From Alphaproteobacteria bacterium (GTDB lineage Bacteria; Pseudomonadota; Alphaproteobacteria; GCA-2731375), in NCBI GenBank assembly GCA_029937535.1, contig JAPYPT010000021.1, positions 1 to 32,412 of the forward strand: a stretch of DNA of 32,412 nt. Direction: 5' to 3'. The notes below the pieces were generated by a model. That model made no database searches. It had not been told where the DNA came from and saw only the letters and a program-made list of their open reading frames with translations. Below are positions 233-9,429 of the stretch, piece by piece. The stretch's first letter is position 1. Every line of letters begins with the position of its first letter. The position numbers and the translations under genes were made by a program.

Positions 233-1915
233 CTAATCGACTTCGCCATCTTCCTCCACCACGCCATAATCCCGCGCGGCCGCTTCCGGGCTGACGAGGC
301 CAAGGCGCACGTCTTCGGCGACGGCCTCTGGGTCGCGGGCCTTTGGGTCGCCGAAACCGCCGCCGCCGGGCATTTCGATGATCAGGCGCTCTTGCGCGGG
401 GATGGTTTGGAAGCCTTTATTGTTTAGGTCCTTGCCGGAGGCCAGCCGGATCCGTCCCGTCGCCCCCGCACCGGCGCCGTCGCGTCCGCGGGCCGGAAAC
501 AGCACCCGTTCGAAACTTGCGAAAATGCCGAACGGGGCGTCCTCCCGGCTGGTGATCTCCATGGTTTGCCCCAAGCCGCCGCGCTGGGCGCCGGCACCGC
601 CTGAATCCGTACGCAATTCCTTGCGCCAGACGACGATGGGCGTGATCGCCTCGGTAATCTCGACCGGCACATTGCGCACGCCGCTGGGATAGGGCGTGGC
701 CGAGAGGCCGTCCAGCCTGGGCCGGGCGCCGGCGCCGCCGCTGTGAAAGCTCATCAGCATAAAGGCCGTGGTCTCATGCTCGGTGCGTTTGGTGATGCCG
801 TGCCCGGCGCCAAGCTTGACGTTCCATAGGTTCGAGGTGCCCTCCGCCGGGACCCGGTCGGGCAGGGCCTGATGCAGGCAGCCGAAAATCACATCGGGCA
901 GCATATGGCCGATGGTCGAGCGCGCGACCACGGCGCAGGGGTGGGGAGCGTTGACGATGGTATTGTCGGGGGCGGACACGGTAATGGCGTCCAGGGTTCC
1001 CGCATTGTTGGGAATTTCAGGCGCCACGACGCATTTCGCGCCGAACGCCGTATAGGCCTCGGTGTAGCACATGGGGCAGTTGATGCCGAAGTCCGAGGTG
1101 CCGGAGGAACCGGTGTAATCCACGTGAATGATGCCATTCGATATGGTCAATTCCGCCACCAGATCGATCGGCGCCTCGAAGCCATCGATGCGCATGGCGT
1201 GCTTCCAACTGCCCTGGGGCAGGGCATTGATCCGGGCGGTAATGGCGGTGCGGCTTTGCTCAATGATATGGCGGCCCAGGGCGTCAAGATCGTCCAGCCC
1301 GTATTCATCCATCATCGCGAACAACCGCCGCGCGCCGGTGTCGTTGCAGGCGGCCAGGGCATAGATATCGCCCTCGACCTGCACCGGCTCACGCACATTG
1401 GCGCGGACCAGGTTCAACAGCCACTGGTTCATCTCGCCCTCGATGGCGAGCGGCATGATGGGTACGTTCAGCCCTTCATGATAGATCTGCCGTCCATCCG
1501 GCGACATGCCGACGCCGCCAATATCGACCACATGGCTGGTACAGGCGAACAGGGCCACCATGGCGCCATTGCGGTAAGTCGGCGTGACAACCGTGAAATC
1601 ATGCAGATGCCCGGTGCCCTTCCAGGGATCGTTGGTGATGTAGATATCGCCGTCCTTCATCACATGGATGGGAAAGACGTCGAGGAAATGGACCACGGCC
1701 CGGGCCATGGAATTGATATGCCCCGGCGTGCCGGTGACCGCCTGGGCCAGCATCTGGCCGTGGAGATCGAAGACACCGGCGGAAATGTCGCCCGCTTCCC
1801 GGCTCGAGGTACTGAACGCCGTGCGCATGAGGGTCTGGGCCTGTTCCTCGACCACCGAGAGCAACCGGTCCCACATGACCTGATACCTGATCCGATCCAT
1901 ATCCGCGCCACTCAT
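233..1915 (-). CDS. Hydantoinase B / oxoprolinase-family protein (N-methylhydantoinase B-like)
   Basis: 560 aa ORF; MDRIRYQVMWDRLLSVVEEQAQTLMRTAFSTSSREAGDISAGVFD, ITNDPWKGTGHLHDFTVVTP, PGGGGFGDPKARDP are typical of HyuB. Its start overlaps the HyuA stop by 4 bp (ATGA). Confidence 0.93.
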   Translation of the reverse strand: MSGADMDRIRYQVMWDRLLSVVEEQAQTLMRTAFSTSSREAGDISAGVFDLHGQMLAQAVTGTPGHINSMARAVVHFLDVFPIHVMKDGDIYITNDPWKGTGHLHDFTVVTPTYRNGAMVALFACTSHVVDIGGVGMSPDGRQIYHEGLNVPIMPLAIEGEMNQWLLNLVRANVREPVQVEGDIYALAACNDTGARRLFAMMDEYGLDDLDALGRHIIEQSRTAITARINALPQGSWKHAMRIDGFEAPIDLVAELTISNGIIHVDYTGSSGTSDFGINCPMCYTEAYTAFGAKCVVAPEIPNNAGTLDAITVSAPDNTIVNAPHPCAVVARSTIGHMLPDVIFGCLHQALPDRVPAEGTSNLWNVKLGAGHGITKRTEHETTAFMLMSFHSGGAGARPRLDGLSATPYPSGVRNVPVEITEAITPIVVWRKELRTDSGGAGAQRGGLGQTMEITSREDAPFGIFASFERVLFPARGRDGAGAGATGRIRLASGKDLNNKGFQTIPAQERLIIEMPGGGGFGDPKARDPEAVAEDVRLGLVSPEAAARDYGVVEEDGEVD

Positions 1916-3996
1916 CCAGCCGCTCCCATTCTGGTCAGGACAATCTGGCCCAGCGCGTTGACCGTCGCGCCGAAACCGTCCGTCACCAATGTTGTCGTTT
2001 CATCCTCGACGATGACCGCCGGCCCCTGAATGACCGCGCCGGGCCGCAAGTCGGCGCGGGCATGCACGGCCGCCTCGATCCAGGCGCCGCTGGCGGGATC
2101 GAACATCTTGCGTTGGCCGAGCGGGTCCGGGTGATATTGCTCCCGTATCGATGGCGCCATTTCGACGCCGGGCCGGTCCGTCGCCAGGGATAGTGTCCAG
2201 GTCAGTGCCTCGACGGCAAGGTTTGGGATGGTGCGGCTGAACAGCGCGCTGTAGGCCGCTTCGAACCAGCCGGCCAGCGCCGCGCCGTCATCGGTCCCAA
2301 ACACCCGTACCGGCACCGGGACCATGATCTCATGGCCCTGCCCCCGATAGCGCATGAAGGCCGAACGGGTTTCCACCAAGGCTTCATCCGGCGCGCCGAG
2401 CCGCACCACGGATTCCGCCTCGGCCCGCATATCTTGGTAGATCCCATTGACCGCGATGGGGTCGAATTCGCGCAGATCCATATACCGTGTCCGCACAACT
2501 TCGTAGGAAATCTGCGCGCGGAGGAACCCGATGGCGGAGCCGACACCGGCACCTTGTGGCACAATCACCCTGTCGATCCCAAGCTTGTCCGCCAACCGGG
2601 TTGCATGCAACGGCGCCGCGCCGCCAAAAGCCACGAGGGAGCGCCCAACCATATCCTTGCCGTTCTCGATGGCGTGGACCCGTGCCGCATTGGCCATATG
2701 CTCATCGACAATTTCGGAAACACCGGCGGCGGCGATATTGGTGTCGATATTCAAGGCCTCGCCTATGTCACGGTTGATCGCATCGACCGCGCGTTCCGGC
2801 GTCAATGTCACCTGGCCTCCCGCGAAGCGTGCCGGATCGATCCGCCCCAGCACCGTATCGGCGTCGGTCACAGTGGGGGCCACGCCGCCATTGCCATAAC
2901 AGGCGGGGCCCGGCACGGAGCCGGCACTTTCCGGTCCGACCCGGATGCGCTGCATGGCGTCCAGATCGGCAATAGAGCCGCCGCCGGCACCGATTTCGAC
3001 CATATCAATGACCGGTATGCGCAATGGCAGCCCGCTGCCCTTTAAAAACCGGTGCGTGCGCGCGACCTCGAATGAACGGGCGATATGGGGTTGAAAATCA
3101 TCGATCAAGGTAATCTTGGCCGTGGTGCCGCCCATGTCAAAGGACAGGATTTTATCCTGATCATTCTCCTTGGCGATATCCCGCGCCAGGATCGCGCCGC
3201 CGGCCGGGCCGGATTCGACAAGACGGATTGGCAACCGCACGGCCGTCTCCACCGTGGTCACGCCGCCGCTCGACATCATCAAAAGCAAGGGGCAGGACAG
3301 GCCCTGGCTCCGCAGACCGTCCTGCAGCCGGTTCAAGTAGCCCGCGATCATCGGCTGCACATAGGCATTCGCACAGGCCGTCGAGGCGCGGTCGTATTCG
3401 CGGATCTCCGGGCAGACTTCAGCCGACAGGGTGATGCCAACACCGGGAAGCGCGGCGGCTAGGATCTCGCCCGCGCGGCGTTCGTGATCCGGATTGACGT
3501 AGCTGTGCAGGAAACAGATGGCGACCGCCTCAACCCCGGTTTTGCCCAAATCAGCGGCCAGGGCGCGCAATGCCTCTTCGTCGAGCGCCAACAATACCGA
3601 GCCGTCCGCCGCGATCCTTTCCGGCACCGTGAACCGCCAATCCCGTTCGATCAGCGGCGGCGGCCGCTCCATGTACAAATCATACTGCTCGAACCGGTGC
3701 TCGTAGGCGATTTCAAGGGAGTCGCGAAAACCATCCGTGGTCACCAGCGCCGTGCGCGCGCCCTTGCGCTCGATCAAGGCGTTGGTGGCCAGCGTGGTGC
3801 CATGAATGATCAAGGTCACGTCCGAGGCGTTGACGCCGCTCCGCCGCAGGATATCGCCAACACCTTCCAAAACCGCCCGTTCGGGCGCATCCGGCGTCGT
3901 CAATAGCTTCAGGCTGTCCTGACCGCCGCCATGCTCCAAAACAACGTCGGTGAAGGTCCCACCAATATCGATTGCCAGCCGCGCCCCGTTGTTCAT
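1912..3996 (-). CDS. Hydantoinase A / oxoprolinase-family protein (N-methylhydantoinase A-like)
   Basis: 694 aa ORF; RLAIDIGGTFTDVVLE, HGTTLATNALIERKGARTALVTTDGFRD, SFDMGGTTAKITLI typical of HyuA. Confidence 0.94.
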   Translation of the reverse strand: MNNGARLAIDIGGTFTDVVLEHGGGQDSLKLLTTPDAPERAVLEGVGDILRRSGVNASDVTLIIHGTTLATNALIERKGARTALVTTDGFRDSLEIAYEHRFEQYDLYMERPPPLIERDWRFTVPERIAADGSVLLALDEEALRALAADLGKTGVEAVAICFLHSYVNPDHERRAGEILAAALPGVGITLSAEVCPEIREYDRASTACANAYVQPMIAGYLNRLQDGLRSQGLSCPLLLMMSSGGVTTVETAVRLPIRLVESGPAGGAILARDIAKENDQDKILSFDMGGTTAKITLIDDFQPHIARSFEVARTHRFLKGSGLPLRIPVIDMVEIGAGGGSIADLDAMQRIRVGPESAGSVPGPACYGNGGVAPTVTDADTVLGRIDPARFAGGQVTLTPERAVDAINRDIGEALNIDTNIAAAGVSEIVDEHMANAARVHAIENGKDMVGRSLVAFGGAAPLHATRLADKLGIDRVIVPQGAGVGSAIGFLRAQISYEVVRTRYMDLREFDPIAVNGIYQDMRAEAESVVRLGAPDEALVETRSAFMRYRGQGHEIMVPVPVRVFGTDDGAALAGWFEAAYSALFSRTIPNLAVEALTWTLSLATDRPGVEMAPSIREQYHPDPLGQRKMFDPASGAWIEAAVHARADLRPGAVIQGPAVIVEDETTTLVTDGFGATVNALGQIVLTRMGAAG

Positions 3997-4038
3997 ATGT
4001 ACGCTACCTTTTGCCTGAAGCTACAACGTGATCCGGCA

Positions 4039-4839
4039 TCAGGTACCGGTAAACTTGGCCGGGCGTTTTTCGACGAAGGCGGCCAGGCCCTCCTTGGCGT
4101 CGTTGGTTTTGCCCAGTTCCACATTAATGGTGGCAAATTCGGCGACGGCGGCGTCGAAACCCTGTTCGAGATACTTTCGGGAATTGGCGATGGTGCCGCG
4201 CACCGCCAGGGGGGCCTGGGCGCAGATCTTTTCCGCCAACTCAATGGCCCGGTCCAGTTGCTGGCCCACGGGCACCACTTCCTGGATGTAGTTGAAGCGC
4301 AGGGCGGTTTCGGCGTCAAATTCGTCATCCGTCAAAAGATAGCGCATGGCGTTGCCCCAGCCCGCGCGCTGCACCATGCGGATGGTGGCCCCGCCCGTGG
4401 CGACCAGATTGCGCTGCACCTCCAATTGCGAGAAACGGCAATCATCCGCCGCGATGACGATCTCGCAGGCCAGCATCAGCTCAATCCCGATGGTGTAGGT
4501 GATGCCCTGCACCGCCGCCACCATGGGCTTGGTGCGGTGCGGACCCTGCAGGCCAAAGCAATCGATATTGCCCTCGCCATAGATCGGCCCGCCCTTGGCG
4601 CGATGGGGTGCCATGGCTGGCATATCCAAACCGGCGGTGGTGTGCGGACCAACCGCGTGCAAGACGCCGCAGCGCAGTTCGTCATCCCGCTCCAACAGGG
4701 TGTAGGCATCGCCCAGTTCCTGGCCCATCTTCGGCGTGAAGCCGTTGAACTTGTGCGGCCGGTCGATGCCAATCAGCAACAGATGGCCGCGCCGTTCCGT
4801 GTTGATACGGCCGTCGGGATTTGTGGGATCGTCCGCCAT
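4039..4839 (-). CDS. Enoyl-CoA hydratase/isomerase (crotonase) family protein
   Basis: MADDPTNPDGRINTERRGHLLLIGIDRPHKFNGFTPKMGQEL...; crotonase pattern. Start placed at 4839, where AAAGGAGAGACGAGC precedes ATG; the track ORF to 4908 is N-terminally overextended. Confidence 0.9.
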   Translation of the reverse strand: MADDPTNPDGRINTERRGHLLLIGIDRPHKFNGFTPKMGQELGDAYTLLERDDELRCGVLHAVGPHTTAGLDMPAMAPHRAKGGPIYGEGNIDCFGLQGPHRTKPMVAAVQGITYTIGIELMLACEIVIAADDCRFSQLEVQRNLVATGGATIRMVQRAGWGNAMRYLLTDDEFDAETALRFNYIQEVVPVGQQLDRAIELAEKICAQAPLAVRGTIANSRKYLEQGFDAAVAEFATINVELGKTNDAKEGLAAFVEKRPAKFTGT

Positions 4840-4859
4840 TGCTCGTCTCTCCTTTGGAT

Positions 4860-6803
4860 CTAGTACGCCATGCAGGCATCGTAACGGGCGGCGGCGATTT
4901 CGATACATAGGTCCACGTCGTGGGCCAGAATATGCCGCTGTTCCACCAGAGCCTCCGCCGCCCCGCGGACCCGGTTCAGATAATCGTCACGGTTATCATA
5001 ACGTTCGCCCAGGGATAGCCGGGGATCCCCCTTTTCCTCTCGCGCCGACTTGTCCTTGGCCAGGGGAATTGAGGAGCCGACATATTCCAGCAACTGCCCC
5101 GTCCCGCCGGTGTCGCCATGGCGGGGGTTGAAGCCCGTGTGGGTGGCCACGGGGACCGTGATATCCGGCATGGGGATACCGCCCGCCTCATTGCCGTTTT
5201 CATCCACCTCCGAAACCCAATCGGGATAGGGCTCCGCCGCCAGCACGGGCGGCATGGCGCCGATGCCGTTGTCCGCCTCCGGCCCCAGATCCATCGGGTA
5301 GACAGCGGTCATCAGCCCGGGATCAGGCAGCGCCAGTCCGGGGATGTTGGACAGGGACGACATCACTGCCGCCCGCCTTGCGCGCTGATCGGCCTTTGGA
5401 TAACGGCTGTCAGGCGGATTGATGCCGTCGCGCACCCAATTCAGAAGATTGACCAGAGCCGCGCGATAGAGGGGCCGGTAGTCGATGATATTCATATTAT
5501 TCTGGCCATGGCTGCCGAACAACGTGCGGCTCTGCCATTTGGCGACGCCCGCGCCATGCTGGGTGGAGGCAAAGAGATAGCGGCGCACACCGTCGGGCAA
5601 CACCGCATCGCCGCCCGTGGCCAGATCGACGTGGCTCAATCCCGCATCGCCGCGCCAATATTCGGACGAGGTGTCCGTATAGATGATCTTGGGCATCCCG
5701 CCCTTGGCCCCTTGCCGGTCCAGAAGTCCCGCGGTCCGGTTGGTGCCGGGGTCGGTCTGCAGCAAATCGGCGAAGGGAAACAGATGCCCAAAGGACGGCG
5801 TGGGCTGGACCGAGGGCTGGGCATAACGGTTATTGAATTCGCCGCGCCGGCCGCCGGCAATGTGGGCCAGAATGCCATCGAAGGCCGGACGGCCCGCCTC
5901 GTCCAGGTTCAAGCCAAAATGCAGCAGGGTGCGCAGGAAGCGGCCGCATTGGGATTGCCCCTCACACACCACATGGTCGATGGCGCCCGCCGTCGGCGCG
6001 TCCGTGTCATGACGGAGGAACGCGGCCAGATCCCGTGTCGCCAGCATGCCGGCACCGACCACGGGACAGTCCAACGGCGTGTACAGCACATCGTAAATCA
6101 TGCCGGCCTTGAAACCGCCCTCCAGATGAACATCATCGTGGGCGCCGAAGGACCATTGACTTCGCGGTATCTCGGTCGGTGTGCCATAGGCGCCATCGCG
6201 CACCAGCAATTTGGCGCCTGGTTCGGATTTGTCGGCCACGGCCACCGGTTCATGCATGCCAAGTTCGCCCACATGATGGTCGGTCAGGGAGATGCTGTCG
6301 GCATCGCCATTGATTTGCAGGCGAAGCTGCATCTGGCCATGGGTTGTGCGGGCGGCGAGCGGCACCTGGGGCGGGGCGAGACCGATGCGCACATGCTCCG
6401 GCGTGCGGGGCACGTCCCACTGCCAGCCGGCCCAGGCCACGGTCAATCCATTGTTGAACAGGAAGCCATCGCCGGGCGCAATCTCCACCGTATCGGTGGT
6501 GCCCATGGCGGTCATATTGAAACGGGTGATGTTACGCTTGCCCCGGTTTGGAACCTGCATCAACAAGGTGCGGCTGCCGCCCGAGAGAGGCCGCAGAAGG
6601 GTGACATCGCCGCTGAAATGCACCAGGCCGTCGTCGCCGCGCGCCGCCACATCCAGATCAGTAACGCCATGATTGGCCGCATGGTCGGGATCGACGGCGT
6701 AGTGGGCAATGGCCTCTATCCGCTCGTAGGACCCCGTATCGCCGAAAGAGCGGCCATCTTCGTAAGGTTCGCGGCTGAGAATTTCGAAATGGGTTACTGG
6801 CAT
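4860..6803 (-). CDS. Alpha/beta hydrolase domain-containing protein (Abhydrolase_10-like)
   Basis: MPVTHFEILSREPYEDGRSFGDTGSYERIEAIAHYAVDP...CEGQSQCGRFLRTLLHFGLNLDEAGRPAFDGILAHIAGGRRGEFNNRYAQPS; GQSQCGR resembles a nucleophile-elbow region. Start chosen at MPVTHFE. Confidence 0.82.
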   Translation of the reverse strand: MPVTHFEILSREPYEDGRSFGDTGSYERIEAIAHYAVDPDHAANHGVTDLDVAARGDDGLVHFSGDVTLLRPLSGGSRTLLMQVPNRGKRNITRFNMTAMGTTDTVEIAPGDGFLFNNGLTVAWAGWQWDVPRTPEHVRIGLAPPQVPLAARTTHGQMQLRLQINGDADSISLTDHHVGELGMHEPVAVADKSEPGAKLLVRDGAYGTPTEIPRSQWSFGAHDDVHLEGGFKAGMIYDVLYTPLDCPVVGAGMLATRDLAAFLRHDTDAPTAGAIDHVVCEGQSQCGRFLRTLLHFGLNLDEAGRPAFDGILAHIAGGRRGEFNNRYAQPSVQPTPSFGHLFPFADLLQTDPGTNRTAGLLDRQGAKGGMPKIIYTDTSSEYWRGDAGLSHVDLATGGDAVLPDGVRRYLFASTQHGAGVAKWQSRTLFGSHGQNNMNIIDYRPLYRAALVNLLNWVRDGINPPDSRYPKADQRARRAAVMSSLSNIPGLALPDPGLMTAVYPMDLGPEADNGIGAMPPVLAAEPYPDWVSEVDENGNEAGGIPMPDITVPVATHTGFNPRHGDTGGTGQLLEYVGSSIPLAKDKSAREEKGDPRLSLGERYDNRDDYLNRVRGAAEALVEQRHILAHDVDLCIEIAAARYDACMAY

Positions 6804-6808
6804 GGGAA

Positions 6809-7777
6809 CTAACTTCCTAAATTTCGGATGGGTCTGGTCACCGACAAGGTACCGCCGGCCCACAGGGGCAAGTAGGTCATCTTCACGCCCGGCCCGCCGG
6901 TGACGATGGGGTGAATATCCCCCGGCGCACGGGCAATTGTGGCGGAGGCAAAGACGAATTCCTGGATGCGGGCCAGGTCCCAGCCGCGTTTGGCGATTTG
7001 CCGCGCCAATTCAGGCGGCAGCAGAAACATCTGCTCGCCCAAGGCCCGCTCCCGCCCGGCCGAGGACACGGCGCGGGCCGACGCCATGGCGTCCGCCATG
7101 GGGGTCAGGATATCTTCCGGAGCGTCGCCGTTTTCGCCCGGCAACACCTCCGCAGTGCCCGAGACGCCCAGGACGGTGACCGCATCGCCCTCAAATCCAC
7201 GGCGATGGGCCAGGGTCGGCAGGGTATCGTCATCGCCCTCGGGCAGGCAAAAGCCGTATTTGCCCGGCTGTCCCATGGTCGCCATATCGCCCACGCCGGC
7301 CCGGGCGCCGGCGATGTTGGTCATGACCAGGGCCATGGCCCGGCCCAATGTGGCATTGGCCCGGTTGCCGGGACCCAGGCAATTGGTGGAGGCATTCATG
7401 CCCATGGCCTGGACAGCGGGGCCATGTACTACAGTGACCACCGCCGGGGTGCCGGTGGTGGTCAAAATGCCCAACAAATTGAAACCTGGCTCCAGACAAG
7501 CCTCGGCGGCGCTTAACACAACCGCCAGCGCGCCTACCGGGCAGCCGGCCAGGATGCATTGATAGGCCAGGGCGGCCGTTGTCAGTTCGCCAAACAGCGG
7601 CGGCATAGGCCCGAACGAGCGCGCCGGATCGGCGCCCGCCAGCATCGCCGTCATACGCTTATCGGTCGGCGGCACCATGGGCAGGCCGTCGCACAGGTCG
7701 AACTCTTCCAGAACGGCGGCGGCGTCCTGCCAACCCGTCGCCTCCTCGAACAGCGGCCATTCGCCCAAACCGTCCAT
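6809..7777 (-). CDS. Conserved protein B of the UGSC-linked paralogous pair; function unassigned
   Basis: MDGLGEWPLFEEATGW...DGLPMVPPTDKR...LAGCPVGALAVVLSAAEACL...NCLGPGNRANATLGRAMALVMTNIAGA...GQPGKYGFCLPEGDDD. Collinear with the protein at 7783..8847 (e.g. NC-x-G-x-G-x3-NAT-[IL]-GRA; KY-x-FC). The track ORF extends upstream into the neighbouring gene and was trimmed. Confidence 0.75.
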   Translation of the reverse strand: MDGLGEWPLFEEATGWQDAAAVLEEFDLCDGLPMVPPTDKRMTAMLAGADPARSFGPMPPLFGELTTAALAYQCILAGCPVGALAVVLSAAEACLEPGFNLLGILTTTGTPAVVTVVHGPAVQAMGMNASTNCLGPGNRANATLGRAMALVMTNIAGARAGVGDMATMGQPGKYGFCLPEGDDDTLPTLAHRRGFEGDAVTVLGVSGTAEVLPGENGDAPEDILTPMADAMASARAVSSAGRERALGEQMFLLPPELARQIAKRGWDLARIQEFVFASATIARAPGDIHPIVTGGPGVKMTYLPLWAGGTLSVTRPIRNLGS

Positions 7778-8847: not shown

Positions 8848-8910
8848 GTCACGGCCAAGCCCATCCGCCCCGTTTAGAGGGGCGGGCAAGCCAGGATGCG
8901 TCCTTCCAAA

Positions 8911-9429
8911 TCAGTTGGCGATCGCCGCCCGCAGGCCGGCGGCGGCCGTTTCAATACGTTCCACCAACTCCTCGGCATTCAGGCCGCCGATGGGATGCTT
9001 CACCACGATCACGTGGGGGTCCATCTTGCGGGCCTTGGCCTGGGCCTCGACGAGAGGCAGGAAGGTGTCGGTAGTCAGGATAAAGTTTTGTACGCCACGT
9101 TTTTCAAGTTCGATGCTGTCATGGAAACTCCACGACGAACATGCCCCTCAATCCGCTATAGCCAACAACGCCGCCCGGTAATTGCCGGCCATTTCGTCAT
9201 ACATGGCGTCCGTGGCCGGCTGCGCCGGGCTGTCCTTGGTCATGTAGTCGATATTGTCCGTGGCGCGGTAGGCGGACATCTTGTCCCGGATACCTTCCAA
9301 CAGCTCCTTGGCGTTGGGCTTGGCATTGGCGAACAGGATGATGGGGTCCTCGCTCCAATTGACCGAATTCGCGCCGGCCCTTTCGGTACTGGGCGCCTCC
9401 CGGCCAAACGATGGATTCACAATACGCAT
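8911..9429 (-). CDS. UGSC-type (seleno)protein with in-frame TGA (Sec at codon 94), read through to 172 aa
   Basis: ATG at 9429 (MRIVNPSFGREAPSTERAG...NYRAALLAIAD) to TGA at 9150-9148, then an open frame of 79 sense codons: U-GACSSWSFHDSIELEKRGVQNFILTTDTFLPLVEAQAKARKMDPHVIVVKHPIGGLNAEELVERIETAAAGLRAAIAN*, ending at 8911. RBS-like GGAGAGAG upstream. SECIS-like hairpin immediately 3' of the UGA. Confidence 0.87.
9118..9136 (-). promoter_or_regulatory. Candidate bacterial SECIS element
   Basis: RNA GUCGUGGA-GUU-UCCAUGAC: 8-bp stem with one G-U wobble, loop beginning with G. The loop starts 19 nt after the UGA. Flanking GUUC (9140-9137) and GAAC (9111-9108) could pair to extend the stem across an asymmetric bulge. 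Confidence 0.75.

Follow-up and report, generated by a model that had tools for sequence, protein, structure and literature searches.

Identification of a UGSC-family gene with an in-frame TGA

The window, meaning the whole stretch of 32,412 nucleotides analysed here, carries a UGSC-family gene on the minus strand at positions 8911-9429. The gene starts with ATG at 9429, ends with the stop codon TGA at 8913-8911 and encodes a predicted selenoprotein of 172 aa. Codon 94 is an in-frame TGA (9150-9148, minus strand) that probably specifies selenocysteine. When translated through this codon, the gene gives the motif ADUGACSSWSFHDSIELEKRG. Family membership was supported by the translation, by comparison of 12 window-type sequences and by two profile matches. 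The score against Pfam PF24696 (UGSC) was 109.4 bits, with a gathering score of 25 bits, and that against NCBIfam NF041046 was 107.3 bits (E 6.5e-31), below the equivalog cut-off of 125. As judged from these scores, the window protein is a divergent UGSC family member and not a strict NF041046 equivalog. It contains the U/C-G-x-C motif followed by the conserved H-D (UGACSSWSFHD), and among 33 sequences D93, Sec94, G95, C97 and D104 were invariant and H103 nearly so. A single TGA was present in nearly all relatives, the window UGA was aligned with the Cys of the CGSC motif in Cys-type homologues, and coding was conserved among the relatives downstream of the TGA.

The UGSC family is known from metagenomes, with Sec in a UxxC motif and a SECIS downstream of the UGA (PMC2398784, PMC13188914). 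The GOS survey counted 255 Sec and 21 Cys forms (PMC2398784), and a 2026 review that lists UGSC notes that little has been characterised of what such selenoproteins do (PMC13188914). The window protein shares the family (PF24696, NF041046), the Sec in a UxxC motif and the downstream SECIS. It differs in that its motif is UGAC instead of UGSC and its subfamily falls below the NCBIfam cut-off. Further differences are that the host has seven Sec paralogues in one genome and that two partner genes follow the window copy. No relatives were present in the viral contigs searched.

A SECIS-type hairpin downstream of the UGA

On the 3' side of the UGA, the RNA reads GGGGCAUGUUC, followed by the 5' arm GUCGUGGA (9129-9136, minus strand), the apical loop GUU (9126-9128, minus strand) and the 3' arm UCCAUGAC (9118-9125, minus strand). 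The UGA and the loop start are 19 nt apart. The two arms, which were defined by sequence, minimum-energy (MFE) fold and comparative alignment, form an 8-bp stem including one G-U pair. This stem is part of the minimum-energy fold, and the simple stem alone has an energy of -9.3 kcal/mol. Sequence and fold thus bear out the preliminary description, which had placed exactly such a hairpin here. The same description had proposed a fit to the published bacterial SECIS pattern, and this was found as well. The bacterial SECIS model calls for a loop of 3-9 nt, a stem of 4-16 bp and a spacing of 16-37 nt from the UGA, together with a G within the first two loop positions and an MFE of -7.5 kcal/mol or below (PMC13188914); the window hairpin lies within the model in loop, stem, G, spacing and energy. 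Compared with the bSECISearch consensus (PMC13188914, Fig. 2A), it likewise has an 8-bp stem, a 3-nt loop starting with GU, 19-nt spacing and a stem below -7.5 kcal/mol, without essential difference. The search of the window against Rfam at the gathering threshold returned nothing.

A lower stem formed by GUUC and GAAC had also been suggested. These sequences are indeed present within the window subfamily, but the minimum-energy fold has a helix of AUGUU with AGCAU in their place, and each of the GUUC/GAAC pairs was formed in only 24-77% of UGA-type sequences. Neither lower stem was conserved beyond the subfamily of the window gene.

The hairpin had further been put forward as evidence for recoding that is independent of the protein frame. 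Taken alone, it is weaker than claimed, because compliant hairpins are common in the GC-rich coding DNA of these loci. Among random in-frame sense positions, some model-compliant hairpin was present at 61%; one of -7.5 kcal/mol or lower was present at 10%, and one as strong as that of the window at 5%. When the peptide was recoded synonymously with the codon usage of the window, 2.5% of the trials formed all 8 pairs and 0.4% formed them together with a GU loop. The folding energy of 57 nt was ordinary in relation to synonymous recodings (p 0.49), as was that of 60 nt in a dinucleotide control (z -1.5). The energy of the whole region was dropped as SECIS evidence, its value being ordinary for the encoded peptide. 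The hairpin in a single sequence is therefore weak to modest evidence, and its strength comes from comparison across relatives.

Selenocysteine machinery and UGSC paralogues in the host genome

The host genome contains a tRNA-Sec gene with a UCA anticodon and a selA gene (582 bits) that directly precedes selB (434 bits, full model length) on the same contig. SelD genes were also found, the best of which has its own in-frame TGA in the motif HGGG-stop-GTK. There are seven PF24696 genes (L014-L020) in the genome, and every one of them contains a single in-frame TGA; genomes of the host's family have 3 to 8 UGSC genes. Within the host's genus and family, nearly all PF24696 matches had exactly one TGA. 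Of 61 genomes searched, 18 related ones had a PF24696 match, giving about 100 matches with one TGA each except for one terminal fragment. TGA forms also prevailed in the wider phylum and class samples, and a few genes had none.

In the host Sec-SelD gene (L069:1531-1590), the hairpin CCCGC-CGUGUU-GCGGG is located 20 nt after the UGA. Divergent UGSC paralogues with the motif GCUGSCTPAVLRA have a stem other than that of the window gene, (G)CCCGC-CGUGUU-GCGGG(C), at nearly the same place, so that the core CCCGC-CGUGUU-GCGGG is common to Sec-SelD and these paralogues. Given this likeness, a single SelB appears to read hairpins of common loop character in the host. Across the wider UGSC family, the apical loop alternates between 3 nt and 5 to 6 nt.

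These observations bear on the possibility that the UGA is read through without a SECIS, by near-cognate decoding or in a reassigned code, and that the role of the hairpin lies in mRNA structure or stability. Sec insertion is predicted here from sequence, which leaves this explanation some room. However, the complete Sec machinery in the genome, the alignment of the UGA to the Cys of the CGSC motif, the fit of loop and spacing to the published bSECIS model and the comparable element in the host Sec-SelD all argue against it, and we regard it as highly improbable.

Comparison of UGA-type and Cys-type genes

Cys-type genes were collected by a Cys-motif scan of 85,488 species genomes and by genome searches. 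Both the UGA-type and the Cys-type sets were limited to sequences with W or C at position +6, and the alignment was gap-free over the 36 nt after the Sec/Cys codon. The comparison covered 79 distinct UGA-type and 57 Cys-type sequences. The preliminary description had named as contrary evidence a hairpin that is not conserved in UGA-containing homologues and is equally present in Cys-containing ones; instead, 90.3% of stem cells were paired in the UGA-type set and 65.8% in the Cys-type set. The UGA-type value exceeded the 84.3% obtained in shuffles of the 3' letters (0 of 500 as high), whereas the Cys-type value was at shuffle level. Double-sided changes affected 27 stem cells in the UGA-type set, with 8 expected, and pairing fell to 8-46% when the partner was slid by 1-3 nt. 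The pair of columns 21 and 27 was C-G in 62, G-C in 15 and G-U in 2 of the 79 UGA-type sequences and broken in none. A stem covariation signal was absent from the 57 Cys-type sequences. The stem is thus selectively conserved, with covariation, in the UGA-type genes. Relative to synonymous expectation, pairing was 17 sd higher in the UGA-type and 4.5 sd higher in the Cys-type set (z 4.5); part of the stem is therefore imposed by the peptide or by shared ancestry.

The loop and its codons separated the two sets further. GU stood at the loop start in 76 of 79 UGA-type sequences and in 0 of 57 Cys-type sequences, a difference to which codon bias could contribute, since most Cys-type sequences belong to other lineages. 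Where serine was encoded at +7, over the loop, the codon was AGT in 45/45 UGA-type and 0/16 Cys-type genes (Fisher 5e-15, a nominal value since kin sequences were counted as independent). AGT also encoded this serine in all 19 additional UGA-type loci of other families, giving 64/64, and it accounted for 11 of the 189 serine codons (about 6%) in eight window genes. Furthermore, in UGA-type genes Trp at +6 went with F, I or V at +8 (codon end C/U) and Cys at +6 with L, M, T or V (codon end G). The residue at +6 tracks that at +8 because their codons base-pair, and the rule was absent in Cys-type genes. One bacterial family supplies most of the UGA-type set; sequences from outside it, in further families of the class and in the myxobacterial MAG L148, were in agreement. 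The recoding of the TGA, as first proposed from a single sequence, is now supported by the covariation, the GU loop, the AGT serine codon of UGA-type genes and the Sec machinery of the host, all of which point to selenocysteine.

A rival reading takes the TGA for a normal stop codon, or for damage in a pseudogene, and the hairpin for a side effect of the conservation of the peptide SSWSFHDS. It would be in keeping with the frequency of compliant hairpins in this coding DNA, the ordinary 57-nt MFE and the partial pairing kept in Cys-type relatives. In practice the comparative data refute it and leave it very little probability: the TGA keeps its position in nearly all relatives, coding is conserved past it, compensatory changes occur at both synonymous and non-synonymous sites, and the AGT serine codon and GU loop are limited to UGA-type genes.

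The partner family and possible function

Downstream of the UGSC gene lies P0002 (7783-8844, minus strand), a protein of about 350 aa from a family that adjoins or is fused with UGSC, as seen from family comparison and the locus survey. It is followed by P0003 (6809-7777, minus strand), a second copy from this family, which has diverged to 31% identity with P0002. No Pfam or NCBIfam model matched the P0002/P0003 family. A partner-family relative was present in 190 of 196 UGSC loci, some of them overlapping, which included UGA- and Cys-type genes of bacteria and archaea, and the two families were sometimes found in the same reading frame. In a close orthologue of the window gene from the same genus (L058), no partner gene lay within about 4 kb in either direction. 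A UGSC/Unknown_1 fusion was reported in the GOS survey (PMC2398784), and Unknown_1 may be the partner family of about 350 aa. On the Roseovarius plasmid pTHAF8_b, the UGSC gene is located between the partner family and thioredoxin reductase, and TrxB homologues occur near several other UGSC genes.

PDB sequence searches gave no match for the UGSC protein or for the partner protein. The AlphaFold model of the UGSC protein (pLDDT 86) has alternating strands and helices and places Sec where the helix that follows strand 3 begins. Its best matches in the PDB were weak (TM about 0.5); several were flavodoxin-like, and no thioredoxin was among the 50 listed. A thioredoxin-like fold has been suggested for UGSC (PMC2398784). 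Foldseek found nothing significant for the partner model, which weakly resembled fumarate hydratase and cyanuric-acid-hydrolase folds; this weak likeness was left aside.

We infer that UGSC and its partner of about 350 aa most likely make up a redox enzyme, in which the U-G-A-C motif would have a redox role with the co-encoded partner protein. A more specific reading, which we favour by a small degree, is that the two form one two-component, sometimes fused, enzyme that is possibly driven by thioredoxin reductase and duplicated into at least seven Sec versions per genome in different catabolic gene contexts.

Two further features of the window were recorded. The downstream genes at 233-6863 (minus strand) suggest a catabolic operon, since their products are an Abhydrolase_10 alpha/beta hydrolase, the A and B subunits of hydantoinase/oxoprolinase and an enoyl-CoA hydratase. 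In the interval from the UGSC stop to P0002, a GC-rich hairpin, CCGCCCC-UCUAAAC-GGGGCGG, was read by eye at 8861-8885 (minus strand); it may act in the processing or stability of the mRNA.

Probable recoding at codon 94 and its significance

Taken together, the hairpin is very probably a canonical bacterial SECIS, and SelB-mediated Sec insertion at codon 94 would yield the 172-aa UGSC selenoprotein. When the ribosome reaches the UGA, SelB with Sec-tRNA(Sec) would bind the apical loop with its GU, 19 nt further along the RNA, and deliver selenocysteine, and translation would go on to the stop codon at 8913-8911. Both the UGSC selenoprotein family and this type of SECIS are known already; by its comparative record, the window gene is a well-supported, if predicted, addition to them.

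What began as a guess from a single sequence is now a proposed recoding site that comparison strongly supports. The case shows a SECIS constraining codon choice and protein sequence alike, and the host, whose seven UGSC selenoprotein genes are accompanied by members of the partner family, would be a good place to learn the role of this old orphan family.
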